This document shows, in pieces, positions 8,210 through 28,050 of a DNA stretch of 54,838 bases; position 1 is the stretch's first letter, and each line of letters opens with the position of its first letter. A program made the position numbers and the translations under genes. The DNA is from Eubacteriales bacterium (GTDB lineage: Bacteria; Bacillota; Clostridia; Lachnospirales; Lachnospiraceae): positions 1 to 54,838 of the forward strand of contig JAUNPS010000032.1 in assembly GCA_030536575.1 (NCBI GenBank), given 5' to 3'. Below the pieces are notes generated by a model. It searched no databases, was not told where the DNA came from, and worked only from the letters and a program-made list of their open reading frames with translations.

Positions 8210-8256
8210 ATTATAGCACGCATTTATTGGATTTGCAAGGGTTTTTTTGTATTTTT
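8210..8256 (-). promoter_or_regulatory. Strong promoter with UP-like element for rpmJ-rpsM-rpsK-rpsD-rpoA-rplQ
   Basis: On the minus strand TTGCAA (8238-8233) and TATAAT (8215-8210) are separated by 17 bp. Immediately upstream is an A-rich tract. The 23 bp at 8234-8256 are identical to 40989-41011, the same position in the rpsJ promoter. The leader to rpmJ is about 75 nt and holds a small AAGGC/GCCTT hairpin. This promoter lets the distal ribosomal genes be expressed independently of the proximal operon. Confidence 0.85.
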
Positions 8257-8285
8257 CGGGTGCACGGGGCGGCGGGATCGGTACT

Positions 8286-8659
8286 GTTCACGCCTGCGCC
8301 AATCTTGAGTATTTTTTGCCACGTAATCATAACCGGACGCCACCGTGCCGTCGAAAACCTTTCGGGGAACGGGGCAACGTCATCGCCAAACTTCCCCTAA
8401 CTGCGACTAAGACGCTCAGGAGAGCCTTCCTACTTCATGCGCCCTGCCATGCGAGCATGGTATCCGATTCACCGGAAAGCCTTAGGAAGGGCGATCTCGA
8501 CATTCTTCCTTGCCGTGTACGGCACGCCTGCATCTCCGTTGGAAACGGAGATGTAGGTGAAGTGCGTCCCTCGAAACACGTCCCCGAAATCTTTCCGCCT
8601 TCCCGATGGCTGCATAATCGCGGACTGGCAAGCACCGAAAAGCTGACGGTGGTGTGAAC
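8286..8659 (+). ncRNA. Large structured RNA, copy A (possible raiA-like class)
   Basis: The region has no credible protein-coding frame but shares three long blocks with 22963-23241: 21 identical bases at 8364-8384, 19 at 8391-8409 and 19 at 8568-8586. A closing stem pairs 8286-8294 with 8651-8659 (one G-U). An inner stem CGGGGA/TCCCCG pairs 8363-8368 with 8581-8586. Several extra hairpins lie in the middle, such as CATCTCCGT/ACGGAGATG. Wobble pairs are allowed on the plus strand but become A-C mismatches on the minus strand, so plus is the likelier sense. The size and dense conservation suggest a known large class such as raiA, but this was not verified. It lies between the island and the rpmJ promoter. 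Confidence 0.6.
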
Positions 8660-8694
8660 CGCGGGCGGGCGGAATCCGCCGCCCCGCGCGCTGC

Positions 8695-9546
8695 TCACCC
8701 TTTCACCGCTCCCAGCGTCACACTCGCTAAAAACTTATCCTGGAAAAGCAGGAAAATAATGATGAGCGGTATCGTAACGATCGTACATCCGGTCAGTACC
8801 AGTTCCCATGGAACCGCGTATAGGTTATCGCCAACGCTCAGTTTTGGAAGGATGACCATGATCGGGAGGTATTCGGTTTTGGAGATAAACATTTTTGGAA
8901 GGAGGTATTCGTTCCATTTGGAGAGGAAGACCAGGATTGCCAGGGCGCCGTAGACGGGTTTGGAAACGGGCGTCACGATTTTCGTGAAAATTGTCCACTG
9001 GTTCGCGCCCTCGATCCGGGCGGATTCGATTAGGGCATCGGGGATTGTCTCCATATTTTTCCGGAACATGAACATTGCAAAGACGTTCGCAATTCCGGTG
9101 ACGATCTGTACGCGGTAGGTATTCAGCCAATGGATGCGGGAATACATCAGGTACAGCGGCGTCAGGTTCAGTTCCTGGGGAACCATCATGGTCATCAGGA
9201 ACATGACGAACAGGATATTTTTTCCGGGGAAAGTGAATTTCGCGAAGGCGTACCCGGCCATGGCCGCCAGCACGATTGCGATCAGCGTGTAGACCGTGCT
9301 GACAAAAAGCGAATTCAGATAGGTACGCATGATCGTCCCGGAATTGTAATTCCAGAGGCTGACGTAGTTTTCCAAGCTCCAGGTTTCCGGCAGGCTTACG
9401 GAGTTATGCAGAAGCTCAGCGCTGGATTTGAAGGAGCCCATCACCATAATATAAACTGGAAACAGGCTGATGAATCCCCAGAAAAGCAGGATTGCGTGGG
9501 TAACGACCGCGATGGGCTTGATCTTTTTCCGTTTTCGTTTCTTCAT
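8695..9546 (-). CDS. Carbohydrate ABC transporter permease (MalG/AraQ type)
   Basis: The 283-residue membrane protein has six predicted transmembrane segments. Its ATPase-contacting EAA loop reads ALIESARIEGANQWTIFTKIVTPVSKP at about residues 178-204, matching the EAA---G---------I-LP pattern of sugar permeases. The C-terminus SVTLGAVKG is typical of MalG-type subunits. With the 9543-10415 subunit it should form the channel through which a sugar bound by the 10474-11745 protein enters. Its ATG overlaps the preceding stop codon by 4 nt (ATGA), so the two subunits are translationally coupled. It is the last gene of this transport operon. No ATPase gene is encoded nearby. Confidence 0.92.
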   Translation of the reverse strand: MKKRKRKKIKPIAVVTHAILLFWGFISLFPVYIMVMGSFKSSAELLHNSVSLPETWSLENYVSLWNYNSGTIMRTYLNSLFVSTVYTLIAIVLAAMAGYAFAKFTFPGKNILFVMFLMTMMVPQELNLTPLYLMYSRIHWLNTYRVQIVTGIANVFAMFMFRKNMETIPDALIESARIEGANQWTIFTKIVTPVSKPVYGALAILVFLSKWNEYLLPKMFISKTEYLPIMVILPKLSVGDNLYAVPWELVLTGCTIVTIPLIIIFLLFQDKFLASVTLGAVKG

Positions 9547-10415
9547 CCGTCTTCACCTCCCAGAAGCTTCATTTCGACCAGGGTAATGGCCAGGATAATG
9601 ATTACCAGGAACCACCCCGCCGCGGAAGCCATCCCGAAGTTTCCTCCGTAGACATTCGTCGTAATCAGGTTAATATAAGGAGCCAGCGACAGCGACACTT
9701 CATTATTTGAGAGCAGGGTATTCGGCTCCGTATAGAGCTTCAGCGCCCCAATCGCATAGGTGATAAAGGTCAGCATAAACGTCGGTTTCATCAGCGGAAT
9801 CAGCAGATAACGCAGGCGCTGCCAGGGCCCCGCCCCGTCCACAATCGCCGCCTCTTCCACATCCTCGCTCACCGTCGTCAGCCCGGCCAGGAAAATAATA
9901 AAATACCATCCGATCCCCCGCCAGGTAATCAGGGCCACCACCGGCCATCTTTCATATTTCACATTCGTCAGGAACGGGATATCCGTCCCCAGCATCTGGT
10001 TGATCACACCCACATCCCCGGCGAAGATCAGCTTAAATACCAGCGCCGACGCCACCACCGCACAGATCTGAGGCATGAAAATAATCGGTTTATAAAAGTT
10101 CTGGAACCTCTTTACGGTTTTCGACCGCATGGTAACGGCCAGCAAAAAGGCGATCACCATCGTCGGCACAAAACTGAAGATAAAATAAAACAGCGTATTT
10201 TGCAGGCATTTCCACATTGTCCGGTAAGTCAGCAGGCTCTTGTAGTTCGAAAGCCCCACAAAAGTTGCCGTGCCATACCCTTTATATTTGTAAAAACTCA
10301 GGACAAACGAATAGATTGCAGGAAACAGAAACGTCACCACATAAATCAGAATAAACGGCAGCAGAAACAGATACGGCGTTAAAATCCCTTTTCTCTTTTT
10401 CTTCCCCCTTTTCAT
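9543..10415 (-). CDS. Carbohydrate ABC transporter permease (MalF/UgpA type)
   Basis: The 290-residue membrane protein begins with a basic cytoplasmic N-terminus (MKRGKKKRKG) and has six predicted transmembrane helices. The EAA loop VEEAAIVDGAGPWQRLRYLLIPLMKP (about residues 194-219) defines the sugar-permease family. The start is ATG 10415 with GGAGGTG 5 nt away; an upstream in-frame TTG has no site. It pairs with the following MalG-type subunit. A hairpin at 10439-10460 separates it from the binding-protein gene and may lower its expression relative to that protein. Confidence 0.92.
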   Translation of the reverse strand: MKRGKKKRKGILTPYLFLLPFILIYVVTFLFPAIYSFVLSFYKYKGYGTATFVGLSNYKSLLTYRTMWKCLQNTLFYFIFSFVPTMVIAFLLAVTMRSKTVKRFQNFYKPIIFMPQICAVVASALVFKLIFAGDVGVINQMLGTDIPFLTNVKYERWPVVALITWRGIGWYFIIFLAGLTTVSEDVEEAAIVDGAGPWQRLRYLLIPLMKPTFMLTFITYAIGALKLYTEPNTLLSNNEVSLSLAPYINLITTNVYGGNFGMASAAGWFLVIIILAITLVEMKLLGGEDG

Positions 10416-10438
10416 CCGTCCACCTCCTTTTTTCAAAC

Positions 10439-10460
10439 GGCCCTGCTAAAAAACAGGGCC
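10439..10460 (-). terminator. Intercistronic hairpin between binding-protein and permease genes
   Basis: A perfect 7-bp stem GGCCCTG/CAGGGCC with an 8-nt loop lies right after the solute-binding protein gene. On the minus strand the stem is followed by GTTTG and then A residues, so it is a weak terminator or an mRNA-stabilising structure. That is the usual arrangement for making more binding protein than permease. Confidence 0.55.
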
Positions 10461-10473
10461 GCCGTTTCATGCA

Positions 10474-11745
10474 TTATTGATAAGGATTCCCAATCTGGTT
10501 TTTCAGATCCGCATCCGCCGACTCCAGCGCCGCATCCAGCTCCAGCGCGCCGTCCAGATACTGGGTCAGGTAATCGCCGATAATCGTCAGCTCCTGGGAA
10601 GAGCAGGGATTGTACGGGTAAACGCTGAACACTTCCAGGGCTTCGAAATAGCCGGACATGTCGCCGAAATAGTCGCTGTTCAGGTAATGCTCGTCTTCCG
10701 CCGCGGATTTCAGAGGCGGAATCTTTCCGGTACGGTCATAAATGGCCTTCTGGATCTCCGCATCACAAGCATATTTCGCCAGGACTTCCGCCGCCAGCTC
10801 CGCATGGGGCGCGTTTTTCGGAATGACCCAGATTCCGCCGCCGGATTCACTTCCTGCCGCAATCTCTTCCGGCCAGGGCGCTACCGCCCATTTCCCGGCG
10901 TTTTCCGGCGTCCAGTTGATCAGATGGTCTTTCATCCAGCCGCCCAGAAGCTGGGAAATCAGCGTGTCGTCAGAGAAGGCTGCCTGCCAGTCCGCGCTCC
11001 ATTCCACAATGTCGGAAAAAGCGCCGCTGTCTTTCAGCTTTTTCAGGTTTTCGAATGCTGCCCGCACGCCTTCGTCCTCCGCACAGTGGTAATTTCCTTC
11101 TTCGTCGCAGAAGGTGCCGCCCGTTGCGCAGAGCATCATGGTCAGGTCATAATTGTTCAACGGGGTGCCGTAGTTTTCCAGATAGCTGTCTGGATAAGTC
11201 TCGCTGATCGTCTGTGCCGCCGCAATGAAATCGTCCATCGTCTTCACTTCCGCTACATCGATACCGCATTCCTCGAAAATATCGGAACGGTAGAACCAGA
11301 TTTTCGGCTTGATCTCATGGATGGCCGCATAGTAGACACCATCGTAGGTCATCAGCTCTTTGGCCGCGTCGATAATATCCTCTTCATAAGGCGCAATGGC
11401 CGTTCCCAGGTCATACAGCACGCCCGCCGCCGCGAATTCCGCAAACTGTGTATAATTCAGGCGGATCATATCCGGAAGTTCTTCCCCGGAGGCCAGCATC
11501 AGCCGGAAGCGCTCCGCCACATCCGCGTCGCCGGAGCCGCCCAGTTCCACGGACAGTTCGATGCTATCGGCGTATTCCGGGCTGTTTTCCAGGAAAATGT
11601 CATTGTTCGGGACATAGTCGTCGATGCTGCCCCACACCATCATACGCAGTACGGTCTTTTCCTCCGCAAAGCCAGTGGTTCCTGCTGCAAGGCCTGCCGT
11701 CAGGGACATTGCCGTAATGAGTGCCATGATTTTTCGTTTTTTCAT
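10474..11745 (-). CDS. Extracellular sugar-binding protein of ABC transporter (family 1)
   Basis: The 423-residue protein is a family 1 extracellular solute-binding protein. An N-terminal signal peptide (MKKRKIMALITAMSLTAGLAAG) ends with a likely signal peptidase I site at GFA-EEK. The mature part shows typical features such as VLRMMVWGS at the start of lobe 1, a methionine-rich MLASGEELPDMIRLNYTQ segment, and GGWMKDHLINWTPENAGKWAVAPWP. No cysteine is present in the signal region, so it is not an ordinary lipoprotein. How it stays at the surface is unclear. The start is ATG 11745 with AGAGGAAG upstream, overlapping the NHL gene by 4 nt. The ligand is unknown; the neighbours suggest a sugar or sugar acid. 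Confidence 0.9.
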   Translation of the reverse strand: MKKRKIMALITAMSLTAGLAAGTTGFAEEKTVLRMMVWGSIDDYVPNNDIFLENSPEYADSIELSVELGGSGDADVAERFRLMLASGEELPDMIRLNYTQFAEFAAAGVLYDLGTAIAPYEEDIIDAAKELMTYDGVYYAAIHEIKPKIWFYRSDIFEECGIDVAEVKTMDDFIAAAQTISETYPDSYLENYGTPLNNYDLTMMLCATGGTFCDEEGNYHCAEDEGVRAAFENLKKLKDSGAFSDIVEWSADWQAAFSDDTLISQLLGGWMKDHLINWTPENAGKWAVAPWPEEIAAGSESGGGIWVIPKNAPHAELAAEVLAKYACDAEIQKAIYDRTGKIPPLKSAAEDEHYLNSDYFGDMSGYFEALEVFSVYPYNPCSSQELTIIGDYLTQYLDGALELDAALESADADLKNQIGNPYQ

Positions 11746-12695
11746 GCGTTCTTCCTCTCTTTCTGTTTGAAATCATCACATCGTTTTAACTGAAACAGGG
11801 AATCTTCCCCGTTGTCAATTCGTCCTAAATAGAGATTTCCGTCCCGATCCGCTCCGATGGAATGGATATTCCCGAAACAGCCCGGATAACCGATTTCTCC
11901 GATCTGCCGTCCGTCCAGATCCAGTATCCGCACACATCCGTCCCCGTCGCACAAATACATTTGCGCTCCAAAACCGCATACTTCGGAAGGATAGCCCACG
12001 TCCTCGATTCTGGTCAGATACGTTCCTTCTTTGTCATAAATCTGTACCAGGAAATTTTCCCGGTCGCAGATCCACAGCCGCTCTTTTGAATCAATGGCAA
12101 TGGAATGGGGAAGCCGGAATTTTCCCGGTTCCCGTCCTGGCCCGCCCCAGGTGCGGAGCAAGGTTCCTTCCGCCGTAAAGCGGTGGACTGCCGTGTTCCC
12201 GTACCCGTCCGTACAGTAGAGGTCGCCCCAGGGGGCCTGCACCATGCGGGTCGGCCGGTTGAAGGGGGCTGCTGCCTGTTTGTTCGTGTACAGGTCGTGG
12301 GGCCAGCGGACGGACGGGTCATAGCCGCTGTCGCTCGCGACGCCTTTTTCGCCCAGCATTCCCAGCACCTTTCCCTGCGCGTCCAGATGGTAAACGACGC
12401 AGTTTGGGTCGTCGCAGATCCACAGGTTTCCTTCCAGATCCACCGTCAGCCCGTGGGTACGCGCGAAATTCAGCTCGGCCCCGAAGGTTCGGATGCAGGT
12501 TCCGTCCCGGTCAAACACGCAGATCGGATATTTCACCGAACGCGTAGACACGTACAGGCACCCGTCCGGATGTTCCGCAATGCCGCTGACGGCCCGGTTC
12601 TCCATGTCTGCGGGCCATTTCGCCCAGTCCCGCTGAAGTTCAAATATAAATTCACCGCTGCAAAAAAGCACTCGGCATGCTCCGCTTTTCTCCAT
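11742..12695 (-). CDS. NHL-repeat six-bladed beta-propeller protein
   Basis: The 317-residue protein consists of repeated propeller blades with NHL-like signatures: SGIAEHPDGCLYVSTR, HGLTVDLEGNLWICDDPN, GDLYCTDGYGNTAVHRFTAEG, HSIAIDSKERLWICDRENFLVQIYDKEG and HSIGADRDGNLYLGRIDN. Such propellers act as sugar lactonases, lyases or binding scaffolds. Here it lies between an HpaI-type aldolase and the sugar-binding protein, which favours a role in sugar or sugar-acid metabolism. No signal peptide is visible. ATG 12695 has GGAGGG 5 nt upstream; the upstream in-frame TTG is rejected. It overlaps the next gene by ATGA. The function is inferred only. Confidence 0.8.
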   Translation of the reverse strand: MEKSGACRVLFCSGEFIFELQRDWAKWPADMENRAVSGIAEHPDGCLYVSTRSVKYPICVFDRDGTCIRTFGAELNFARTHGLTVDLEGNLWICDDPNCVVYHLDAQGKVLGMLGEKGVASDSGYDPSVRWPHDLYTNKQAAAPFNRPTRMVQAPWGDLYCTDGYGNTAVHRFTAEGTLLRTWGGPGREPGKFRLPHSIAIDSKERLWICDRENFLVQIYDKEGTYLTRIEDVGYPSEVCGFGAQMYLCDGDGCVRILDLDGRQIGEIGYPGCFGNIHSIGADRDGNLYLGRIDNGEDSLFQLKRCDDFKQKERKNA

Positions 12696-12718
12696 ATTTC
12701 CCTCCAAGCCTTCCGGCT

Positions 12719-13486
12719 TTAAAATTCACGCAGCCGCTCCAGATTTCCCTTCAGCCCCTCTGCCAGAATCCGCGCATCCTGCCCGAACACCGCCCACTGG
12801 ACGCCCCGGCTCTTCACATCCGCCGCATCTTCTGCCGTCGCGCCGATGGCCGCGCCCACATAGTAGCCTTTTTCCCTTGCTCGTTTGCAGATATCGCCAA
12901 AAACCTGATCCAGGTCATAATCTTTCCCGCTTCCGATAATCGAGCGTCCCAGGTCGGCCCGCCCGATAAAGAACGAATCAAAGCCTTTCTGGTCTAAAAT
13001 TTCATCCAGATTTTCGTAACCTTCCACAGTCTCGATCTGCCCGACTTTAAACACCTTCGTGTCCGCGGATGCAATGTAAGCGTCTTCCGCATCCAGCCCA
13101 TAGCGGATCGCCCGAATCGGCCCCTGCCCCCGCACGCCGCCCTGGTCGGGATAAAGGCATGCCTGAATCTCCTCCCGCGCAATCTCCACATTATTCGTAA
13201 ACGGGAAAATCACGCCGTCCGGCCCCATATCCAGGATCGCTTTCATCTGCGTCCGGTCAGCTCCCGGCACCCGCACAAAGGCCGCGCACCCGGTTCCCTG
13301 AGCCGCCATAATATGATGCAGGATCTCCTGGCGGCCAAGGGGCGCATGCTCCGCGTCGATCCAGACGAAATCATATCCCGCATACCCCGCCATCTCCGAT
13401 ACGGCCGGGTCAGCCATGGTCAGGAAAAAGCCTTTTACGAGCTTGCCTTCTTCCATTTTTTTCTTCAATGCCGCTACTCTGTCCAC
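12719..13486 (-). CDS. HpcH/HpaI-family class II aldolase (2-oxo-3-deoxy acid type)
   Basis: The roughly 255-residue protein belongs to the HpaI/RhmA class of metal-dependent pyruvate aldolases, which cleave 2-oxo-3-deoxy acids to pyruvate and an aldehyde. Seen in order are FVWIDAEHAPL (catalytic His), FVRVPGADR, ILDMGPDGVIFPF, RAIRYGL, GQIETVEGYENLDEIL (metal-binding Glu) and FFIGRADLGRSIG (metal-binding Asp). The start is uncertain. GTG 13486, with AAAGGA 10 nt upstream, is preferred over GTG 13495, which nearly touches that site. It is the first gene of the operon running to 8695. It implies that the imported compound is degraded through a keto-deoxy acid. Confidence 0.88.
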   Translation of the reverse strand: MDRVAALKKKMEEGKLVKGFFLTMADPAVSEMAGYAGYDFVWIDAEHAPLGRQEILHHIMAAQGTGCAAFVRVPGADRTQMKAILDMGPDGVIFPFTNNVEIAREEIQACLYPDQGGVRGQGPIRAIRYGLDAEDAYIASADTKVFKVGQIETVEGYENLDEILDQKGFDSFFIGRADLGRSIIGSGKDYDLDQVFGDICKRAREKGYYVGAAIGATAEDAADVKSRGVQWAVFGQDARILAEGLKGNLERLREF

Positions 13487-13546
13487 AATTCTCACGTCCT
13501 TTTCTGTTTGATAAGTACAGTTTACCGCATTTACAGCGCAGACAAA

Positions 13547-13568
13547 ATATGATAGAATTCTTATATTC
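13547..13568. promoter_or_regulatory. Imperfect palindrome in the divergent control region
   Basis: The 22-bp sequence is centred on GAATTC and has AT-rich, partly symmetrical arms. It lies between the start of the minus-strand aldolase operon and the plus-strand regulator gene. This makes it a candidate binding site for the neighbouring AraC-type regulator. No clear consensus promoter is seen in 13496-13668, which fits activator-dependent expression. Confidence 0.3.
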
Positions 13569-13668
13569 TCGAAAATATTACGATTTCCGGATTTTTCTTA
13601 TTAATTTTGCATAGGATTCCACACTTTTTATCCACTGTGCAATGCATTTTTGACAAGGAGCATTCCCC

Positions 13669-15171
13669 ATGAATATCCAATTATTGATCGTAGACGACGA
13701 AAAACTGACGAAAGAAGGGCTGACAAATTACATCGACTGGGCCTCCCTTGGTGTCACCCAGGTGCGCGCGGCCTCCAACGGCGCCGAAGCCCTGGAACTC
13801 GTCCGCAGCTTCACCCCCGACATCCTGCTGACCGACGTCAAAATGCCCCATATGGACGGCATTACCCTGGCCCGGCACATCCGGGAGCTTTACCCGGACT
13901 GTAAGCTGCTCTTTTTAAGCGGCTACGCCGATAAGCAGTACCTGAAATCCGCCATCGACCTGAAGGCGGAAACCTACATTGAAAAACCCGTCATCCTGAA
14001 CAATGTGGCGCTCACCGTTTCCAAGGTCATTCAGGCCGTCGCCGCTGAAAAGCAGGCCCTGGAACGCCAGACTCTCCGGGATGCTTCCCTGAGCGAGACG
14101 AAAAAAATCGTGCACATTGACCTGGTACAGGAACTGATTTCCCCGAACTTAGACTGGGAGGCCTTTAAAAAGAAATACATTCCGACCTATTTTACCTGGC
14201 AGGACAATGCATCCTATGCCGCTGTCTGCATCCGCCTGCATCATTGCATGGATTTTCGTGCCGGGAAGCAGGCCTGCCACGCCCTGAATCAGTTTCTTCT
14301 TGAGAAGCGTCTTTTCGCCGACCATGAATTTTTCCTGGGATTTCTGGAAAATAACTGCCCGATCCTGCTTACCAGCGTCACGTATCTGGCTGTTCTTCAC
14401 GGAGTTTTGAACCAGGTGCGGGAATATGTGAAGAAGGAATGGGGATTCGATTCCACGGTTGCCATTGGGCCGACGGTTCACCGGCTGGCCGATCTTCGGA
14501 GCAGCTACGAGATTGCGTCCGGAAATCTGGAATACCAGCACATGTATTTCAATTACCAGTCGATCCTGGACTGCCATTTTGCGCTGGAGGAAAAGCCTTC
14601 GCCGGAGGAGCTGTTTGCCAGACGCACTTATTCGCTGGACTCTCTGGAACAGCTTTTTCAGACCCTGCGCGCGGAACATTACACGGATATCCGTCATATA
14701 AAGCAAAAGCTTTATGAACTGTACGCCGCCACCTGTCTGGGAATCCCCCTCACCTGGGAGGAATTCCAGCTCTACACCCTTCAGGATTATGCCCAGATGA
14801 TCTGCTACGGCATGTCGAATCTGGAAGACCTGAATCATTTGGAGCAGTATCATAAGCAGATTCAGAAGTCCATCCGCTTTATGCTTCAGAATTATATGCA
14901 TGCGGATTTGAATATCCGAACCATTGCGGAAGAGGCCGGGCTGTCCCCGAATTATTTCTGCTCCCTGTTTAAGCAGAACACCGGCGTCACGGCCAATGAG
15001 TATCTGCTGAATATTCGAATGGGAAAAACGTGTTTTTATTTGAAGCATTCGGATTTAAAGCTTTATCAGATTGCCGATCAGGTGGGAATTCCGGATGCCA
15101 ATTACCTGAACACGCTGTTTAAAAAACGTTACGGACAGACGCCGACGCAGTACCGCCGCAGCCGTCCATGA
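13669..15171 (+). CDS. YesN-type response regulator with AraC DNA-binding domain
   Basis: The 500-residue regulator has an N-terminal receiver domain (about 1-125) with the acidic pocket VDDEK and phospho-acceptor D56 in LLTDVKMPHMDG. A long middle region follows. The C-terminal AraC-type double helix-turn-helix (about 400-500) includes IRTIAEEAGLSPNYFCSLFKQNTGVTANEYLLNIRM and QIADQVGIPDANYLNTLFKKRYGQTPTQYR. Together with the kinase encoded next to it, it should activate the adjacent transporter operon when an extracellular sugar is sensed. ATG 13669 has an AAGGAG site. The kinase start lies 9 nt after the stop, so the pair is one transcription unit. Confidence 0.94.
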   Translation: MNIQLLIVDDEKLTKEGLTNYIDWASLGVTQVRAASNGAEALELVRSFTPDILLTDVKMPHMDGITLARHIRELYPDCKLLFLSGYADKQYLKSAIDLKAETYIEKPVILNNVALTVSKVIQAVAAEKQALERQTLRDASLSETKKIVHIDLVQELISPNLDWEAFKKKYIPTYFTWQDNASYAAVCIRLHHCMDFRAGKQACHALNQFLLEKRLFADHEFFLGFLENNCPILLTSVTYLAVLHGVLNQVREYVKKEWGFDSTVAIGPTVHRLADLRSSYEIASGNLEYQHMYFNYQSILDCHFALEEKPSPEELFARRTYSLDSLEQLFQTLRAEHYTDIRHIKQKLYELYAATCLGIPLTWEEFQLYTLQDYAQMICYGMSNLEDLNHLEQYHKQIQKSIRFMLQNYMHADLNIRTIAEEAGLSPNYFCSLFKQNTGVTANEYLLNIRMGKTCFYLKHSDLKLYQIADQVGIPDANYLNTLFKKRYGQTPTQYRRSRP

Positions 15172-15180
15172 GGAATGCCT

Positions 15181-16950: not shown

Positions 16951-17126
16951 GGCTCCGGTTTGCGGTGCGCCGGGTGCGGGCGGCCAAAGTGCGCCGGGAC
17001 GGGACGGCATGCGCCAGAATTCCCGGTTCGAGAGGTGCAATTTGAATGCGGGTGCGCCGGGCACCCGGTTTGTGGGCACAGCGTTGGCCGGATGCCGGAC
17101 GAAGCGGTTCGCGAATTGCGCCGGGA

Positions 17127-17618: not shown

Positions 17619-17649
17619 AAAATTCCTCCTTTTCCAAACGTTTTGTTTT

Positions 17650-17678
17650 ATTTTAGCACTGGATGGAGGTTTCTGCAA
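17650..17678 (-). promoter_or_regulatory. Promoter for the DUF2284 gene
   Basis: On the minus strand TTGCAG (17678-17673) and TAAAAT (17655-17650) are separated by 17 bp. The predicted start lies about 25 nt before the ribosome-binding region. Confidence 0.65.
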
Positions 17679-17767
17679 TGCTTACTGGCAAACCCTTTTC
17701 GTACTACGCCGAATTCGCTGAACTCTTCCGGGAGCCTTCGTGCTATGCTCGAAAGTTCCCGGCAATC

Positions 17768-18733: not shown

Positions 18734-18749
18734 ACTATGTATCCTCCTT

Positions 18750-19646
18750 TTAGTCTTCCAGCATAGCCCATGCCCGTCTCAGCACGCGCTTTGTGTTTGC
18801 AAGAATAATGTCCGGTTCTTCGTCGCCGAAAGGCGACACTTCCATGGAGAGCACCAGGGGCGCCTGGGGGCGGAAAAAACCTTCCTCTTTCAGGACGCGC
18901 AGGTAATCCAGCAGTTCTTCCGTGTCATTGGCGCTGTTGGGGAAGCCGAATCTGGGATGTTTGTCGCCGAATGCGTCGCATCCTTCTTTTATAACCGCAT
19001 TTCCGAAATGCAGGTGCGTAATATAGGGCCGCAGGGTCTGAATCACGAACCGGGAGGTTTCATAGGTGGTTGGGAAGTGGCTCAGGTCAACCAGCAGTCC
19101 GAAATTCGAATGGGTCGTGCGCAGATCCGCCGCGAATTTTGCGGCCAGCGGGGCCGGGCCGATCAGTGCCGCCTTGTCGAGATCGTAATCGAAAACTTCC
19201 AGTTCTACGTTCATTCCTTTTTGTCCTGCATAATCGCAGACAGCTCTGGTAGTTTTTAAAAGCTGTCGGTACTGCTGTTCTTTTGTCTCCGGCTGCCATT
19301 TTCCAGACAAAAAGGCGATGCCTTTCGCCCCCAGATAAGCAGCTTCGTCGACGGCTTCGAGCAGGGTAGCTTCTGCCTGTTTTCTCTTTTCTTCGTCCAG
19401 GTCATTGGGATTCAGGCTGGGGCCAAGGAGTCTTGGCTGGGCTCCATAGCACACTTTTAAGTGAGACTGGGCCAGCAATTTCCGGCACGCTTCCCGCGAC
19501 GCGTCGTCCGGGCAGCGGCAGACCTCTACCGCCTGGAAAAAGTCGTCTTTCGCGATCCGGCGAATCACTTCTTCCTGTGGAACTCCCGGATAGGACATCC
19601 AGGTTATGGTGCCGACCTGGAAATATTTTTCAATGAATTCTCTCAT
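18750..19646 (-). CDS. Sugar phosphate isomerase/epimerase (xylose isomerase-like TIM barrel)
   Basis: The 298-residue protein has the AP-endonuclease-2/xylose isomerase-like TIM-barrel fold. The likely metal-binding quartet is Glu in VELEVFD, Asp/His in LLVDLSHFP, His in THLHFGNA and Glu in LSMEVSPFG. These positions match the sugar isomerase/epimerase group, where a divalent metal polarises a keto-sugar. The exact substrate cannot be told. It starts at ATG 19646 with AAGGAG upstream, and is followed at 16 bp by the dehydrogenase gene. This suggests consecutive steps in one catabolic route. Confidence 0.88.
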   Translation of the reverse strand: MREFIEKYFQVGTITWMSYPGVPQEEVIRRIAKDDFFQAVEVCRCPDDASREACRKLLAQSHLKVCYGAQPRLLGPSLNPNDLDEEKRKQAEATLLEAVDEAAYLGAKGIAFLSGKWQPETKEQQYRQLLKTTRAVCDYAGQKGMNVELEVFDYDLDKAALIGPAPLAAKFAADLRTTHSNFGLLVDLSHFPTTYETSRFVIQTLRPYITHLHFGNAVIKEGCDAFGDKHPRFGFPNSANDTEELLDYLRVLKEEGFFRPQAPLVLSMEVSPFGDEEPDIILANTKRVLRRAWAMLED

Positions 19647-19805
19647 GGTTTAAATCTCCTTTTCTCTTTTTGTACCGGAACGGCCGCGGACATGCACTGA
19701 CTCAAATCCGCCAGCACTTCAAAACCGGCGTTTCGCAGAGTCAAATCCGCGCCGGGCTGCGGCGCAGGCGGATACCAGCCATATTTCCGCGCGGCCGCGG
19801 CGCTC

Positions 19806-21500: not shown

Positions 21501-21517
21501 GGGCGTCCCTGCTTTCT

Positions 21518-22933
21518 TTACACGGCGTTTGGCGAAATGCCGAAGTATTTTTTGAAAACTTTGCAGAAATAATAGCTGTCGCTGAAGCCAGTTTTTTCGG
21601 CGACTTCGCTGACGGTGGCGTCGCTGCACTGGAGCATTTCCATCGCTGCTTCCATGCGCATGGCCATCAGATATTCGGAAAAGGTTTTTCCGGTGACTTT
21701 TTTGAAAAGTTCGCTGCAATAGGACATATTCAGGAAAAACATTTCCGAGAGCGTTTTCAGCTGGAGCGGTTCGGCGTAATGCGCGTCTACGTAATTCAGC
21801 ATTTTCTGGAAATGTTCGTTTCCGCTGACGATTCCTTTTTTCTCGGTTCCCAAAAGCTGGCCTATGAGGTTCTTTTCCAGGGTATCGAAGAAGTTCCGGA
21901 TGCCTGGGAAGGAATGCAGAATTTTTCCGATGGTTTCCATCTTCTTTCGCTGGGGAAGGAGGAGGTTATAATTTCGGATCAGGGTGTTGCGGATATCGTC
22001 CAGCAGAAATTCAACGCAGTCGAGTCCCAGCGTCCTTTCCCGAATGCCGTTCTGGATTTCGCCCAGAAGCTGGCGGATCTGGTCGATCCGTTTTCCGGTG
22101 ATGGCCATCCGGAGTTTTCCGGAGTACAGGCGGAAATAGTTCTGGCCGGAGGGCTGATAGATTTCCAGGCATGGGGGGTTTTCCAGGAACCAGCCGGCCG
22201 CGGAGGTTCGGGCTTCCGTGATGGCGTGTTCGATCATTTCCCCCAGGATAAAGGGACGGCTGATTCCTACGTAGCAGGTTTCTTTTACCAGACGGGCGCC
22301 GAATTCTACGAGTTCTTTTTTGCGGCTGCTCTGGTATTCCGTCACGATCAGGAAGTCTTGCTCTTCTTCCCGAAAAACCAGGAACTCTGCGCCTTTTTGT
22401 TCAAGCATCCGGTCAATGTTCTGTTTGTGGGTGATTTTCCGGATTCGGACTGCCGCGATACGCAGTACGGTGTTGGCGTGGAAGCGATCCAGACGCCGGA
22501 TGGTTTCCAGAAGGCGGGAGGTGTCCCCAAGAAGCGCGGTGTCGGAGCTGAAGCGTTCCTGATCCAGGATTTCCCGCAGTTTTTCCAGGAAGGCGTCCAT
22601 TTTGCTGCTGTCGAGGGGTTTCAGGAGGTATTCGTAGACGCCTTTGCGGATGGCTTCCTGGGCGAGAGGGAATTCTGCGTAGCCGCTTACGATGATAAAT
22701 TTGCAGGCCAGGCCTTCCTGGCGGATGCGGTCGAGCATGCCGAAGCCGTCCAGGCCGGGCATTTTGATGTCGCAGAAGACCACGTCCGGGTGGATTTCCC
22801 GGATTTTTTCCCACGCCTGAAACGGGTCTGTGGCGGAGCAGGCCACCGCAAACCCGTGTTCTTCCCATTGGAAGGAGGCTTCCAGGCTGGCAAGCCCCCA
22901 TTCTTCATCGTCGACTAAAACCACTTTATACAT
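21518..22933 (-). CDS. YesN-type response regulator with AraC DNA-binding domain, second pair
   Basis: The 471-residue regulator has a receiver domain with VDDEEWGL and phospho-acceptor D55 in VVFCDIKMPGLDG. The AraC-type C-terminal domain (about 370-470) includes LKTLSEMFFLNMSYCSELFKKVTGKTFSEYLMAMRMEAAMEM and VSEVAEKTGFSDSYYFCKVFKKYFGISP. It precedes its kinase by 17 bp. The second large RNA lies directly upstream (22963-23241), so the mRNA leader must run antisense to, or through, that element. Confidence 0.93.
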   Translation of the reverse strand: MYKVVLVDDEEWGLASLEASFQWEEHGFAVACSATDPFQAWEKIREIHPDVVFCDIKMPGLDGFGMLDRIRQEGLACKFIIVSGYAEFPLAQEAIRKGVYEYLLKPLDSSKMDAFLEKLREILDQERFSSDTALLGDTSRLLETIRRLDRFHANTVLRIAAVRIRKITHKQNIDRMLEQKGAEFLVFREEEQDFLIVTEYQSSRKKELVEFGARLVKETCYVGISRPFILGEMIEHAITEARTSAAGWFLENPPCLEIYQPSGQNYFRLYSGKLRMAITGKRIDQIRQLLGEIQNGIRERTLGLDCVEFLLDDIRNTLIRNYNLLLPQRKKMETIGKILHSFPGIRNFFDTLEKNLIGQLLGTEKKGIVSGNEHFQKMLNYVDAHYAEPLQLKTLSEMFFLNMSYCSELFKKVTGKTFSEYLMAMRMEAAMEMLQCSDATVSEVAEKTGFSDSYYFCKVFKKYFGISPNAV

Positions 22934-22962
22934 GCTGCATCTGTCCTCGTCTGCTAGTTTCG

Positions 22963-23241
22963 TTCCTGTTCACGTGCCTCTTTCATTTTTTCTATATTTC
23001 GATAGCCGAACGCCACCGACTCAGATGAAAATCTTCCGGGGAACGGGGCAACGTCATCATCAAGCTTCCCCTAACTGCGACTAGGACACTCAGGAATGCC
23101 TTCGTGCCCAAGTCTTAGTAAGGGGCGATCTCGATTCTTCCTAATAACGCCCCTCGAAACACGTCCCCGGCCGCTTTCCATCTTCCCTGGCGGCTGACTT
23201 TGAAATCAAGTTCGTCATCACAGCCGGCACGTGAACAGGAA
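22963..23241 (+). ncRNA. Large structured RNA, copy B (possible raiA-like class)
   Basis: This fills almost the whole gap between the 430-residue protein gene and the regulator gene. A perfect 16-bp closing stem pairs 22963-22978 with 23226-23241. Inner stems are 23036-23042/23164-23170 (CCGGGGA/TCCCCGG), 23080-23087/23112-23119 (one G-U) and 23121-23127/23148-23154 (AGGGGCG/CGCCCCT). It shares three blocks of 19-21 identical bases with 8286-8659, while the peripheral hairpins differ. Strand choice follows wobble pairs and an AGAT-GAAA-ATCT tetraloop. No clear promoter or T-run was found. The class is not confirmed. Confidence 0.6.
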
Positions 23242-23242
23242 T

Positions 23243-24535
23243 CTAGTTTACCAGTTCGATTCCGCTCCTGCGCATCCCCTCTTTTATGCTGTCCAGCAGG
23301 GCATAGGTCGCGCCGTCATAATGTCCCAGGGACAGGCCGTCGATTCCCAGGGTGGAAAAGACGTTGATGGCTTCCATCAGGAGCTCCGGCGTGGAGTTCG
23401 GCCGGGTGGACAATGCGCCCAGGATGGGCTTTTCGAAGCCGATCCCGCGCCGGATTTTCAGGATATTGTTCTGCTTTTTCCGGAAATGATCGGGCGCGCC
23501 GAAGTGTTCGCTGTAGTCGGAGTCCCGCACGGAATCCAGGTAGGGGCCCAGGCGTGAAAAGTCGATTCCGGCCAGTTCGGGGTAGGTTAAATAGTTGTTG
23601 TAGCGAAGTTCCGCTTTGGGGTTGGCGCGCTTGACTTCCCGGTGGATTTCCTGGAAGAGTTCTGTTATACATCTTACCCGGAATTCCAGCCATTGATACA
23701 GGGATGGGTTTTCCAGGAGGAATCCGGTCTCGGTCAGGTCGCTTCCCAGAAGCAGGTGCTGTTCCATGACGCGTTCGTTTGCGCCGTGGGTGACGGCAAT
23801 GCACAATTTATGGAGCTCCTTTAAGTCGAACACGATCTTGTCCCAGTCGTATCCCCAGGAGAGGGCTTTTTTGCGGCAGTTTTCGCAGAAACAACCTCCG
23901 GTCAGAGCGCCAAGGAGGTGCCCGATGCGGTTTTGCGGATCTTTTTCCTTCAAAAACCATGGCGGGGCCACAGGCTTTCCTTCATTAAAGACCATCATGC
24001 AGGTCTGGATGAAGTCCACGTCGTGATTCTTGACGGAATCGTAGAAGATGGCTTTCAGGTATTCCCGGACGTCAGGGTGGTTCGAGCAATAGAACATGGG
24101 GATACGCTGTCCGGTGATATCCTGCTGGAAGACGTCCGGAAATTCCCGCTCGGCGTAGGCGACGTCGAAAAGGGTGTGGGAAATCTCGATCCCGGTTTTC
24201 AGGTTCAGTTTCCTGGCATAGGTGGTCAGGTTGTCCAGCCAGTCCTGATTTTTCAGGAAATCCCGGTCGGAATAGATGGGTTTCATCCGGGTATTCCGGA
24301 AGTTTGCTTCGTCCATCCGGTAATAGACGCGGCTGTCCTCCGGGAGGTAGTATTTCCGGACGGGGTTCAGGGTGTAGAACAGGCTGGTGAGGGGCCGTTT
24401 CTCTTTATGCATGATCCCGACAAGGTAAACGCTGTTTACCCCTGCGTGTTCCACCACATCGTTTACGCATTTTTCCACTGTCCGGTCAGCCAGATCCCAG
24501 GGATACAGGCTGGAAGCAATTTCTTTTATATACAT
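23243..24535 (-). CDS. Uncharacterised TIM-barrel protein, glycoside hydrolase-like
   Basis: The 430-residue protein begins MYIKEIASSLYPWDLADRTVEKCV and has the segment order of a (beta/alpha)8 barrel related to uncharacterised glycoside-hydrolase-like families. Notable blocks are IPMFYCSNHPDVREYL, a cysteine motif GCFCENCRKKAL (about residue 210), KAELRYNNYLTYPELAGIDF and ILGALSTRPNSTPELLMEAINVFSTLGIDGLSLGHYDGA. The FCxxCR block occurs in several barrel hydrolases that bind zinc. There is no signal peptide, so it would act on imported material in the cytoplasm. Its place just after the binding-protein gene supports a role in processing the imported glycan. The function is unknown. Confidence 0.6.
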   Translation of the reverse strand: MYIKEIASSLYPWDLADRTVEKCVNDVVEHAGVNSVYLVGIMHKEKRPLTSLFYTLNPVRKYYLPEDSRVYYRMDEANFRNTRMKPIYSDRDFLKNQDWLDNLTTYARKLNLKTGIEISHTLFDVAYAEREFPDVFQQDITGQRIPMFYCSNHPDVREYLKAIFYDSVKNHDVDFIQTCMMVFNEGKPVAPPWFLKEKDPQNRIGHLLGALTGGCFCENCRKKALSWGYDWDKIVFDLKELHKLCIAVTHGANERVMEQHLLLGSDLTETGFLLENPSLYQWLEFRVRCITELFQEIHREVKRANPKAELRYNNYLTYPELAGIDFSRLGPYLDSVRDSDYSEHFGAPDHFRKKQNNILKIRRGIGFEKPILGALSTRPNSTPELLMEAINVFSTLGIDGLSLGHYDGATYALLDSIKEGMRRSGIELVN

Positions 24536-24570
24536 AGTTTACTCCTTACGGCAAATGCGGCAATGTTTTT

Positions 24571-26037
24571 TTACTGAAACGATGCATAATGCTCCGCAAA
24601 CTCCTGAAACGCCTCCTGGAACTCCGGCATTTCCCTAAGCGATGCCTGATACTCCTTAAACTCCTCAATCGTAATCTGCCCGGAAACCGCCTTCGTCTCC
24701 ATCGCATCGAAATCATCCTGATATTCCGTCCAGGCCGCACTCCAGGTCGGCGACTGAAGCACCTTCCACCAATCCATCAGCTCGTCCGCGCCAAAGTCAT
24801 ACAGTACCGACATGATTTCCCGCGTCTCATCATTGTATTCCTTCGACGCCGCTTTGGAATCCACCTTCGCCCATTCGTTTGTGGCGCAGATGAAAGCCTG
24901 CATACAGGAGTTGGTCACTTCGTCGTTTCCGGCATCGGTGGACACCACATTGCCATCATCATCGTAATTCCAGTGATAACCTTCCACGCCGTAGTTCAGC
25001 ATATTATAGCTTTCTTCCGCACAACATGCATCCAGGAATTTCAGAATTTCCGGAACCTGTTCCTCGCTCACATTCTTCGAGATCAAAAGCCCGCCAAAAT
25101 ATCCCAAATCCCAGTAGCCAGCCGTTCCGGCCTCGCCTTTCAGGTAAGGAACCATGCTCACCGACGCATCCTCGCTGTACTGGCTATGGATATTTTCGTT
25201 TAAGTCATACCGATGCCACGCATTTTTAAACAAAGAACCGCTGATTCCGGTGGTAAAATACTCTTCCTGCTGGCTGGTTCCGATCAGCGTATACTCCGAT
25301 GGCAGAACGCCCGCCGCATACATTTCCGCATACCACGCCACCATATCCGCATAAGCGTCCGTCAGCTTCTCCTGGATCAATCCGCCGTTCTCATCTTCCT
25401 GCAGGTCAAACACCCCAAACGCCCCGCCAAAATAATACGTCGTCGACGAGAAAGGCACGAACCCCACATCTACCAGGCCTGCATCCACCATCTGCTTCAT
25501 CGCATCGCCAAATTCCTCAATCGTCTCCGGCAGCGCAAGCCCAAGCTGATCCAGCAGATCCTGCCGAATCATCATACAGCAGTCCAGATTTCCCCTGGTC
25601 TTTGGCACCAGATAAATCGAACCGTTCACCTTCGCATAATTCCACGCGTCCGCATTCGTGGCCGCCAGATTCGGATATGCGCTGAAATCCCCCAGAAACT
25701 CCGTCAAATCCCAGAAATATCCCTCCTCAATGGCATTCTGCACCACCGCGTTCGTGATATCCGTACGCTCCACGATATCCGGAAGCGAATCTGACAGGAT
25801 ATTCAGGGACAGCTTTTCGTAATAATTGTCCGAATTAATCCAGTCCACGGTGTAATCCACATTCAGGGCTTCCTCGATATTCGCCCAATACTGCCCATCC
25901 TTCGCAGGAGCCGTATTGTACTCCATCGCCATGCCCGTCACTTCCAGCGGCGCACTCTCCTCAGCCATTCCCCATGCGCCAAAGGCAAGGGACGTCCCAA
26001 ACGCCAAAACCATTGCTAATGCTGCTCGTTTCCTCAT
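24571..26037 (-). CDS. Extracellular sugar-binding protein (LplA-like)
   Basis: The 488-residue protein is a family 1 solute-binding protein related to LplA-type components. The signal peptide MRKRAALAMVLAFGTSLAFGAWG ends at a likely GMA-EE cleavage site and has no lipobox cysteine. The mature region includes YWANIEEALNVDYTVDWIN, LSDSLPDIVERTD, YAKVNGSIYLVPKTRGN and a tryptophan-rich C-terminal part. It should bind an oligosaccharide outside the membrane and pass it to the LplB/LplC-like permeases encoded just upstream. The gap to the permease is 45 bp. A GAAAGGAGAAAAAG site precedes ATG 26037. Confidence 0.9.
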   Translation of the reverse strand: MRKRAALAMVLAFGTSLAFGAWGMAEESAPLEVTGMAMEYNTAPAKDGQYWANIEEALNVDYTVDWINSDNYYEKLSLNILSDSLPDIVERTDITNAVVQNAIEEGYFWDLTEFLGDFSAYPNLAATNADAWNYAKVNGSIYLVPKTRGNLDCCMMIRQDLLDQLGLALPETIEEFGDAMKQMVDAGLVDVGFVPFSSTTYYFGGAFGVFDLQEDENGGLIQEKLTDAYADMVAWYAEMYAAGVLPSEYTLIGTSQQEEYFTTGISGSLFKNAWHRYDLNENIHSQYSEDASVSMVPYLKGEAGTAGYWDLGYFGGLLISKNVSEEQVPEILKFLDACCAEESYNMLNYGVEGYHWNYDDDGNVVSTDAGNDEVTNSCMQAFICATNEWAKVDSKAASKEYNDETREIMSVLYDFGADELMDWWKVLQSPTWSAAWTEYQDDFDAMETKAVSGQITIEEFKEYQASLREMPEFQEAFQEFAEHYASFQ

Positions 26038-26082
26038 ACTCTTTTTCTCCTTTCTATCAAAACGTATGTCCTACGTTTTTTC

Positions 26083-26946
26083 TCAGCCTTTCACCGAACC
26101 CACCATAACGCCTTTCACGAAATGCTTCTGCAAAAACGGATACACCACCACAATCGGCAGCATAGCCAGCACCACTGTCGCATACCGGATCAGCTCCGAC
26201 GGAACCTTTTCCACATCAATGCTGTCCACTGCGTTGTCAATAATCAGCGTCTTTACATAAACCTGCAATGTCCGCAGCTTCGAATCATTGATATAAACCA
26301 CGGAATTAAAATACACATTCCAGTGGTACACCGCCAGGAATAAAACCAGCGTCGCCAGCACCGCCTTGGACAGCGGCAGGATAATCCGGAAAAAAATCGT
26401 CAGGTCATTGGCCCCGTCGATCCTGGCCGCCTCCTCCAGATCCGCCGGTATCCCCGCAATGGACGTCTTCGCAAGTATCACATAATAATAACTCGACAAA
26501 ACCGGAATAATCAGCGCCCACCGGCTGTTCAGAAGCCCAAACCCCTTCACCGTCAGAAACTGCGAAACAATCCCCGGATTAAACAACATGCTGGCGATTA
26601 CCATGCTAATCATAAACTTGTAGCCAGGCATATCTTTTTTCGTCAACGCATAGGCGTAGGTAAAGGTGACGCTGATACATAAGAATGTCCCCACCAGCGT
26701 GATAAACACCGTATTCAGCAGTGCTGTAACGAAAGCGTCGTTCTTCAGCACGTATGCATAGTTTTCCAGTGACAACTTTTTCGGAAACAACCGAAATTCA
26801 AACGGTACATAAACCTCCTGGGCCGTCAGCGACACACTGATAATATACAAAAATGGGACAATGCAGCACAGCGCCGCCAGCGTCACGACCAGATACGCAA
26901 TGATTTCGATGCCTGAAATCCTCTTTTTCTTCGCTTTTTTCGTCAT
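26083..26946 (-). CDS. Carbohydrate ABC transporter permease (LplC/YtcP-like)
   Basis: The 287-residue membrane protein has about six transmembrane segments and the EAA loop DLEEAARIDGANDLTIFFRIILPLSKAVLAT (about residues 180-210). It ends KHFVKGVMVGSVKG, like LplC/YtcP permeases. ATG 26946 directly follows the LplB stop (TAATATG), with AAGGAA 9 nt upstream. An in-frame ATG at 26964 inside the previous gene is less likely. It forms the translocation pore with the next entry, and needs an ATPase not encoded in this window. Confidence 0.92.
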   Translation of the reverse strand: MTKKAKKKRISGIEIIAYLVVTLAALCCIVPFLYIISVSLTAQEVYVPFEFRLFPKKLSLENYAYVLKNDAFVTALLNTVFITLVGTFLCISVTFTYAYALTKKDMPGYKFMISMVIASMLFNPGIVSQFLTVKGFGLLNSRWALIIPVLSSYYYVILAKTSIAGIPADLEEAARIDGANDLTIFFRIILPLSKAVLATLVLFLAVYHWNVYFNSVVYINDSKLRTLQVYVKTLIIDNAVDSIDVEKVPSELIRYATVVLAMLPIVVVYPFLQKHFVKGVMVGSVKG

Positions 26947-26947
26947 A

Positions 26948-27853
26948 TTAGAACATTCCTTCATTGCCTGTTTTCTTAATGGCTCTGTTTGATAAAACGA
27001 CCAGTACCAATCCCACCAAACCCTTGCACACGCTGACCGTCACGGAAACGCTGTAATTGCCCTGCTGGATTCCCTGCTGATACGCATACAGGTCAAAGGT
27101 CTGGGCAACATCCGACACAAATGTATTGCTCATCAGCATAAGCTGCTCGATCCCGGTATCCAGAACCGTCCCCAGCCGCATGATAAACATCACAACCACC
27201 GTCGGCATGATCCCCGGCAGCGTCACATGGAGGATCTGACGCCATTTGCTCGCCCCGTCCACCTCTGCCGCCTCATACAGCGTCTGGTCAATCTGGGAAA
27301 TTGCCGCCAGGTAAACGATGGAACCCCAGCCCAGCTCCCGCCAGGTACTCTGCCCGAACAGAATCCACCAGAACAGCTTTGGGTCTGTCAGGAAACTCAC
27401 TTTTTCCCGCCCGGCGGCCACCAGCAGCTTATTTACAACGCCGATATCCACGGAAAAAAGAAAGAACGTCAGCCCTGCAATGACTACCCAGGACATAAAA
27501 TGCGGCAGATACACAAGCGTCTGCACCGCTTTCTTGTACTTCTGGTTTCGGATTTCATTCAGCAAAATCGCCAGGATAATCGGCAGCGGGAAACCCAGGA
27601 ACAGATTGATGCTGCTGATCGCCAGCGTATTGCGCAGCATTTGCAGAAAATTTCGGTTCCGGAAGAAATTGATGTAATTCTGAAACCACACCCACTCGCT
27701 TCCAAAAACCCCTTTGGAGACTTTAAACTTTTCAAAGGACAGAACAACGCCCCACATCGGAAAAATTTTAAAGCATAAAAAGTAGAGCGTCCCTGGCAGA
27801 GCCAGCAAATACACATAACGGTAACGGTAAATCCGCTTTCGCAAACTTGACAT
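26948..27853 (-). CDS. Carbohydrate ABC transporter permease (LplB/YteP-like)
   Basis: The 301-residue membrane protein begins MSSLRKRIYRYRYVYLLALPGTLYF, a typical LplB N-terminus with the first membrane helix. It contains the EAA loop LYEAAEVDGASKWRQILHVTLPGIMP (about residues 200-225). It is the first gene of the second transport operon, with a strong AGAAGGAGG site before ATG 27853. The operon order is lplB-like, lplC-like, binding protein, TIM-barrel protein, followed by the regulator pair, isomerase and dehydrogenase genes in the same direction. Confidence 0.93.
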   Translation of the reverse strand: MSSLRKRIYRYRYVYLLALPGTLYFLCFKIFPMWGVVLSFEKFKVSKGVFGSEWVWFQNYINFFRNRNFLQMLRNTLAISSINLFLGFPLPIILAILLNEIRNQKYKKAVQTLVYLPHFMSWVVIAGLTFFLFSVDIGVVNKLLVAAGREKVSFLTDPKLFWWILFGQSTWRELGWGSIVYLAAISQIDQTLYEAAEVDGASKWRQILHVTLPGIMPTVVVMFIMRLGTVLDTGIEQLMLMSNTFVSDVAQTFDLYAYQQGIQQGNYSVSVTVSVCKGLVGLVLVVLSNRAIKKTGNEGMF

Positions 27854-27876
27854 GTTCCTTCCTCCTTCTTGAGGCT

Positions 27877-27960
27877 ATTTTAGCAAATATTACAAGAGAT
27901 GAACATGCACTGGTTTCGGTTTATTGGTAATTATTTTGGTTTTTTTCGAATATTTCGGTT
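27877..27960 (-). promoter_or_regulatory. Probable activator-dependent promoter of the second transport operon
   Basis: On the minus strand TAAAAT (27882-27877) lies 17 bp from a poor -35 (TGTTCA at 27905-27900). Upstream are four short ACCGAAA/ACCAAAA/ACCAAT-like repeats between 27960 and 27912. A good -10 with a weak -35 and upstream repeats suits activation by the AraC-type regulator of this island. Site identity is inference. Confidence 0.4.
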
Positions 27961-27993
27961 CTGATATTATGTATTTTGTTTACATCTGGGCAT

Positions 27994-28039
27994 AAAAAAA
28001 TTCCTGCAATGCAGCTTCTTACGCCGCACTGCAGGAATT
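27994..28039 (-). terminator. Intrinsic terminator after infA
   Basis: On the minus strand a stem of at least 8 bp (TTCCTGCA/TGCAGGAA, 28030-28037 with 28001-28008), with further inner pairs, is followed by seven T residues (28000-27994). It closes the proximal ribosomal operon right where transcription would otherwise run on to rpmJ. Confidence 0.9.
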
Positions 28040-28050
28040 CCGACCTGCTC

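Follow-up and report, generated by a model that had tools for sequence, protein, structure and literature searches.

Why is the S10-spc-alpha string of ribosomal operons, a textbook case of conserved gene order, parted by sugar-uptake genes between infA and rpmJ in a member of the Lachnospiraceae? The break lies on contig JAUNPS010000032.1 of a Eubacteriales bacterium (assembly GCA_030536575.1). We analyzed this contig over its entire 54,838 bp, hereafter "the window"; it belongs to a 4.81-Mb draft genome of 100 contigs. The gene infA (28051-28269, minus strand; identified by translation and Pfam PF01176 eIF-1a, E = 8e-28) is the last of the upstream (S10-spc) half, and rpmJ (8013-8126, minus strand; identified by translation) is the first of the downstream (alpha) half. 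Between the end of infA at 28051 and the start of rpmJ at 8126 there are 19.9 kb. Downstream of rpmJ follow rpsM (7321-7686, minus strand; identified by translation and homologues), rpsK, rpsD, rpoA and rplQ, and upstream of infA are map, adk, secY, rplO, rpsE, rplR and rplF at normal spacing. All joints other than rpmJ|infA, measured from rplQ to rplF, are normal and the order of the ribosomal operons is kept. A separation of about 20 kb, first proposed in a reading of this DNA made without database searches (the sequence-only reading), is thus confirmed. Our best explanation, to which we give a probability of roughly 0.78, is that two transcription units meet at infA|rpmJ in Lachnospiraceae, and that this seam has been filled repeatedly or the linkage across it lost.

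Recurrence of the split in Lachnospiraceae

We compared 13 joints, from rplQ to rplF, in 80 loci and the window. Gaps of more than 1 kb occur at rpmJ|infA in 9 of the 53 loci with both genes (window included), versus 1 of 699 at the other twelve joints. The sole other case is adk|secY, with 1.17 kb, in Catenibacillus scindens DSM 106146 (L077). Six more loci (L067, L068, L074, L087, L091 and L106) have no infA in a full 10-kb flank upstream of rpoA. In L067, infA was located 11.4 kb before rpmJ on the same contig. In L068, from Lachnoclostridium An138, infA is on a 249-kb contig that continues for 92 kb downstream, and the alpha genes are on a separate 82-kb contig. The split, its recurrence and its concentration at one of 13 joints can be read directly from the assembled sequences.

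Across genomes, infA and rpsM are more than 2.5 kb apart in 18 of 122 informative Lachnospiraceae, drawn from three samples (7/43, 10/77 and 1/2, the last being G280). Both genes share a contig in 11 of these 18, and the distances for the other seven are minima across contigs. The corresponding counts are 0/29 in other families of the order, where the largest distance (1.63 kb) has its gap between rpmJ and rpsM, and 0/94 in other families of the class (largest 2.02 kb). For 18/122 versus 0/123, Fisher's test gives p = 1.8e-6, a value to be taken only as a guide, as the genomes are not independent. The sequence-only reading regarded infA-rpmJ-rpsM as one of the most stable gene strings. Within Lachnospiraceae these counts make infA|rpmJ a weak joint instead. 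One joint further down, a 1.5-kb gap at rpmJ|rpsM was seen in a locus of another family (L019, genome G057).

In the second family sample, InfA was searched in 80 of 154 genomes, picked before InfA positions were known, and the other 74 were left out. Family genomes were dropped if one gene was missing (G003, G008, G022, G044) or if contig ends made them uninformative (G042, G102, G140, G225). Likewise, we dropped nine genomes of the class that were without one gene and three with the genes on different contigs (G353, G329, G320). Family genomes with 1.1-1.9 kb between infA and rpsM (G018, G024, G028, G114, G173, G209) were counted as not split, the smallest counted splits being 2.8-3.1 kb (G023, G084, G151). 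L094 and G197 are one genome (identical coordinates), as are L082 and G140 (InfA coordinates).

A tree was built from 101 loci, 33 of them scored as split and 51 as intact; it requires 19 changes of state, 13 of them forced by starred branches. Loci count as split here when at least 1 kb separates infA from rpmJ on a shared contig or, for genes on separate contigs, on the basis of the minimum distance; L087 was scored as split though no InfA was found in its genome. The split rows of the 122-genome family sample were put on the tree deliberately, so it gives events and not a rate. Because the outgroups are contiguous, we read the state changes mainly as splits. The split state would thus derive from a contiguous ancestor, a direction taken from the outgroups (none of 123 informative other-family genomes exceeds 2.5 kb).

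Chromosomal rearrangement is a serious alternative, because the inserted DNA is of native composition and the two halves are at least 65 kb apart in some relatives. Inversion, translocation or duplication with asymmetric loss (SNAP) would then have parted the spc and alpha halves, with native chromosome as the cargo between them. The GC content of the window's island is 0.525 compared to 0.533 in 20 other stretches of the same genome, so its composition does not deviate. The halves are about 112 kb apart in the genome of L106 and 65 kb apart in G091, to which the 92 kb past infA in Lachnoclostridium An138 can be added, and SNAP is proposed for this same cluster in PMC8046335. However, both halves keep their order and strand in the window and in 17 other same-contig cases, with inserts of 1.2-32 kb, which one inversion does not give. 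Moreover, no duplicate is left in the window's genome, where InfA and RpsM have a single match each. We consider rearrangement in place of insertion possible but doubtful.

Promoter-like sequences at the seam

A promoter-like sequence for rpmJ and the alpha genes is located at 8210-8238 of the window (minus strand; TTGCAA-N17-TATAAT, 10/12 consensus matches). Such sequences occur before rpmJ throughout the family, whether or not the joint is broken. At a score of at least 9.5, they were detected in 21 of 30 split and 35 of 48 intact family loci (3% of shuffles), and at a score of at least 8.5 in 27 of 30 and 44 of 48, respectively (7.4% of shuffles). Two loci were dropped from this count, L078 with a poor rpmJ match and L061 with only 33 bases upstream, and a further three with unknown state were assigned to neither group. 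At 14 outgroup junctions, from 29 genomes of the order, the infA-rpmJ gap is 16-88 bp and contains no promoter-like sequence. When the 220 bases before rpmJ are considered, infA coding sequence included, one of these 14 junctions reaches 8.5. In G338 and G331, from other families of the class (L188 and L189), infA and rpmJ are 1.69 and 1.35 kb apart, and promoter-like sequences with scores of 11 and 11.5 occur 96 bases before rpmJ. In these two genomes an open joint goes with a promoter-like sequence, which would fit the model independently.

In this model, the Lachnospiraceae ribosomal supercluster would comprise two transcription units with their boundary between infA and rpmJ, the promoter of the second being predicted. 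The downstream unit may have become independent in this family, so that the seam could take up DNA or the two halves become unlinked. DNA entering between infA and the rpmJ promoter would cut no essential transcript, because the rpmJ side has its own predicted promoter, and such an insertion may thus be neutral. Lineages would then have filled the seam with unrelated, mostly co-directional metabolic genes, or lost the linkage altogether. The DNA presumably entered through ordinary recombination or through rearrangement, with no dedicated integrase involved.

The sequence-only reading attributed tolerance of the break to a terminator after infA together with a promoter before rpmJ. Both are predicted in the window, where the putative intrinsic terminator (27990-28050, minus strand) is a long hairpin followed by a U-run (-33.8 kcal/mol, z = -7.15) that is absent from the list of a simple terminator scan. 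The promoter half of the idea proved general and the terminator half did not. A terminator follows infA in 9 of 49 intact loci and in 7 of 38 counted as split, the latter including contig-end cases of unknown state, so a general terminator as the cause of tolerance is not upheld. Between rpmJ and rpsM, the window encodes an S4-Clostridia ribosomal leader (7791-7856, minus strand; RF03140, 41.1 bits, gathering threshold 37.5). We rejected the idea that this leader generally belongs to the downstream unit, as only 4 of 16 sources, some of them without the region, reach the threshold. An S10-Clostridia leader precedes rpsJ (40863-40947, minus strand), where it is expected.

Several observations weigh against the two-unit explanation. 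The promoters are consensus matches, not mapped starts, and the score is below 8.5 in three of the 30 split loci (L068, L127, L131) and four of the 48 intact loci (L047, L050, L051, L085). Read-through into the cargo is possible in most split loci, because so few of them have a terminator after infA. Seven of the 18 family splits (G002, G029, G031, G091, G109, G148, G123) are minimum distances with the genes on different contigs, and in G331 and G338 the seam is open outside Lachnospiraceae too. In addition, the split state is clustered by lineage and thus partly inherited: 19 changes are needed, whereas shuffling gives a mean of 26 and reaches so low a number in 1 of 500 cases. The tree itself cannot separate gain from loss of the split. 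Finally, a relationship of cause and effect between promoter and splitting is something that we infer.

Age and contents of the island

Three members of the window's genus were returned (the window, G001 and G002). All of them are split, and they form a supported clade on the tree. In G001, 32.6 kb separate infA from rpsM on a single contig; in G002, infA has 40 kb downstream without rpsM, which is on another contig. The window stretch 8693-16927 is collinear, with 73-75% DNA identity, with a stretch between infA and rpmJ of G001, and includes most of what we define as module A (8695-16950). The infA-side part, module B (17768-27853), is not shared by G001. G001 has an additional 11.5 kb toward rpmJ that encodes a lacto-N-biose-type phosphorylase, an alpha-amylase, a lactonase and a Dus homologue. 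The G002 genes beside infA are of a different kind, for example a Y-family polymerase, a MATE transporter and a glycosyltransferase. Because all three are split and module A is between infA and rpmJ in G001 too, the split predates the divergence of the window, G001 and G002. The cargo then changed, the island growing by accretion. The sequence-only reading had suggested comparing the junction in close relatives as a means to date the insertion. In this comparison G001 and G002 are also split, which places the split before the divergence of these three genomes, and a single 20-kb island is not supported. We thus view the window as probably one genus's instance of the general pattern, an old split with module A shared, module B not found in G001 and a repeat element beside rpmJ.

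A single horizontally acquired sugar island of 20 kb, inserted recently into an otherwise stable string as the sequence-only reading proposed, would explain why two complete uptake modules are side by side. Close relatives (E <= 1e-60) of the solute-binding protein at 10474-11745 occur in 1 of 119 other family genomes, elsewhere on the chromosome (G001 and G002 were outside this sample). The comparison with G001 already contradicts a single island, because the half next to rpmJ occurs there at the same place and the half next to infA does not; G002 is split too. Pfam scans (E <= 0.001) of the island open reading frames (ORFs) detected no integrase, transposase, recombinase or conjugation families, and there is no tRNA within the window. 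The junction regions 27851-28060 and 8101-8700 have no exact stretch of 10-20 bases in common (shorter or inexact repeats were outside this test), and the GC content is like that of the other samples. We consider a single recent acquisition improbable.

The junction between the island and rpmJ is filled by a miniature inverted-repeat transposable element (MITE) of about 0.38 kb (~8278-8661, ends approximate, minus strand) with terminal inverted repeats GTTCACAC..GCCAGC. It is located between the last permease and the promoter-like sequence of rpmJ. A search of the genome returned 67 matching rows in at least 40 places (40 of 95 candidates scored), and the terminal inverted repeat pattern has 39 exact matches versus 0 for the reversed control. 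The MITE is modular (~0.29-0.42 kb), with terminal inverted repeats GTTACWGTTCACAC..GCCAGC and inner blocks in some copies only. No transposase is encoded within it, an 87-amino-acid ORF (8435-8698) has no Pfam match, and the copies printed show no clear target-site duplication. An Rfam scan of the junction repeat gave one chance-level match only. At the sensitivity used, sequence searches did not find the MITE in G001 or G002, and short, weak matches to its inner part occur in G028. As both G001 and G002 are split, we reject the MITE as a mark of the insertion event; it probably arrived late and did not bring about the split. The sequence-only reading was correct that the junctions have no integrase, transposase or tRNA, but had overlooked the MITE.

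A repeat with at least 40 places at one junction of a 100-contig draft might also suggest an assembly or binning artefact, that is, a chimeric contig joined at the MITE. However, the best scored copy is 91% identical over 277 bases, with no identical copy among the 40 of 95 candidates scored, and in G001 a single contig spans infA, the rpmJ-side module and rpmJ. In G280, whose assembly has 20 contigs and is 100% complete, the 20-kb split is inside an 863-kb contig. An artefact is thus extremely unlikely.

Pfam scans agree with the island content first described, two ABC sugar transporters, two YesM/YesN pairs and catabolic enzymes, the latter being sugar-acid enzymes. Module A encodes two permeases (8695-9546 and 9543-10436, minus strand; PF00528) and the solute-binding protein (10474-11745, minus strand; PF13416), which share 83-91% amino acid identity with their G001 counterparts at the same locus. 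These are adjacent to an NHL/SMP-30-like beta-propeller, a possible lactonase (11742-12707, minus strand; PF01436 and PF08450; 72% amino acid identity to G001), and a HpaI/GarL-type aldolase (12719-13495, minus strand; PF03328, with HpaI/GarL equivalogs below cut-off; 82% identity). The module ends with YesN (13669-15171, plus strand; PF00072 and PF00165) and YesM (15175-16950, plus strand; PF06580, PF02743 and PF02518), which are on the strand opposite to the rest of the island and share 77 and 74% amino acid identity with G001. In G001, the gene for the module A solute-binding protein is read as two ORFs within one tblastn match (L005:18383-19660), due to either a pseudogene or a sequence error.

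All module B genes are on the minus strand. Closest to infA are two ABC permeases (26948-27853 and 26083-26964; PF00528), a solute-binding protein (24571-26037) without a Pfam match that was assigned by phmmer to extracellular solute-binding protein family 1 (E = 8e-8), and a 430-amino-acid protein (23243-24535) without Pfam, NCBIfam or PDB-sequence match. These are followed by a YesN-type response regulator (21518-22933; PF00072 and PF12833) and a YesM-type histidine kinase (19806-21719; PF06580 and PF02518), the listed ORF of which overlaps that of YesN. A xylose-isomerase-like TIM barrel (18750-19646; PF01261) and a D-2-hydroxyacid dehydrogenase (17768-18733; PF02826/PF00389) complete the module, both with NCBIfam matches below cut-offs.

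In Firmicutes YesM/YesN sugar uptake loci, YesM and YesN are found beside a solute-binding protein and two permeases. The window has this arrangement twice, with a YesM kinase, a YesN AraC-type regulator, a solute-binding protein and two permeases adjacent. As in YesM/YesN-linked loci, no ABC ATPase was found among the island proteins scanned. The island is ordinary in content and unusual only by its location. Our guess from the enzyme classes is that the cargo may serve to take up and degrade a sugar acid or glycoside, controlled by two YesM/YesN systems. Elsewhere in the window, a xylose-isomerase-like protein is encoded downstream of rplQ (2796-3725), and a cobalamin riboswitch (RF00174, 73.5 bits; 48537-48716, minus strand) precedes genes for a methyltransferase and an SBP_bac_5-type ABC importer.

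In the 18 same-contig cases, 101 of 115 predicted cargo ORFs are co-directional with infA, without control for leading-strand bias. The count is only approximate because the ORF caller missed YesN at 21518-22933 and kept a doubtful ORF at 17127-17678. We scanned 70 of the ~116 predicted cargo ORFs outside the window against Pfam. Sugar-related families include sugar importers, YesM-type kinases and glycosidases, and transport is also represented by a NIL-domain/NlpA-type ABC importer and a TRAP transporter subunit. Other enzymes are a glycyl-radical enzyme, acyltransferases, pyrroline-5-carboxylate reductase, a subtilase and radical-SAM enzymes, and the remaining families include BspA-type leucine-rich repeat proteins, a VanW-like protein and a chemoreceptor.

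Given that the same seam has been opened many times, one might suspect a site-specific mobile element that targets it. However, no recombinase, integrase or transposase family was detected in these 70 of ~116 ORFs at E <= 1e-8 and, as noted above, none in the window's island at E <= 0.001. Nor do the cargoes have a common module. In an all-versus-all comparison (E <= 1e-15, identity >= 35%; G280 and three ORFs without coordinates not included), sharing was limited to the genus pair, to L103-L089 and to one 101-residue match between G001 and G194. A common mobile carrier is unlikely because cargo proteins are hardly shared between loci, and we consider a site-specific element very improbable.

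Carbohydrate-transport genes are present in four of the five same-contig inserts of more than 15 kb that were examined (the window, G001, G015 and G280), a count without a background-frequency control. The fifth, in G194, encodes solute-binding proteins beside ABC exporters and radical-SAM enzymes. The seam could be a favored landing place for carbohydrate-uptake loci, selected as the ribosomal neighborhood would couple sugar uptake to growth rate, possibly via early replication and high dosage in fast growth. We consider this reading unlikely.

Relation to known operon rearrangements

In combination, the results indicate that one defined joint gives way repeatedly in a large family, and that the likely permissive change is a promoter before rpmJ. 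This likely permissive promoter is visible in unbroken relatives, missing from the tightly spaced outgroups and present in the two outgroups with an opened joint. What keeps operons together may thus become testable by comparison, with gain of an internal promoter first and loss of linkage later. As a practical caution, adjacency of infA and rpmJ is unsuitable as a check of assembly quality in Lachnospiraceae.

Insertion between operons of the S10-spc-alpha cluster is already known. We found no recognized description of the infA|rpmJ seam, or of its recurrent splitting in Lachnospiraceae, in the open PMC literature (subscription papers were beyond reach). In operon statistics over many prokaryotes, the available passages of PMC9514032 describe an independent rpoA-rplQ-rpsD-rpsK-rpsM cassette, which stands on its own in ~53% of the genomes covered by that study. 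The likeness is in the alpha genes as a separate unit. The difference is that those passages are silent on the infA|rpmJ seam and its fill, and the word "Lachnospiraceae" occurs 0 times.

A close parallel is PMC8046335, which covers Gammaproteobacteria and Bacilli ("clostridia" occurs 0 times in the main text). There, unrelated metabolic genes, such as nrdHEF and ilv-leu, invade borders between operons of the same cluster and later events may separate the operons fully, with 77 of 115 rearrangement events traced to gene insertions. Compared with the cases described there, a single border, infA|rpmJ, has been struck repeatedly within one Clostridia family, and promoter-like sequence is present also in the unbroken relatives. 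Our reading of the Lachnospiraceae fits the order of events in that source, in which a few genes first enter between operons, which are then separated by further events.

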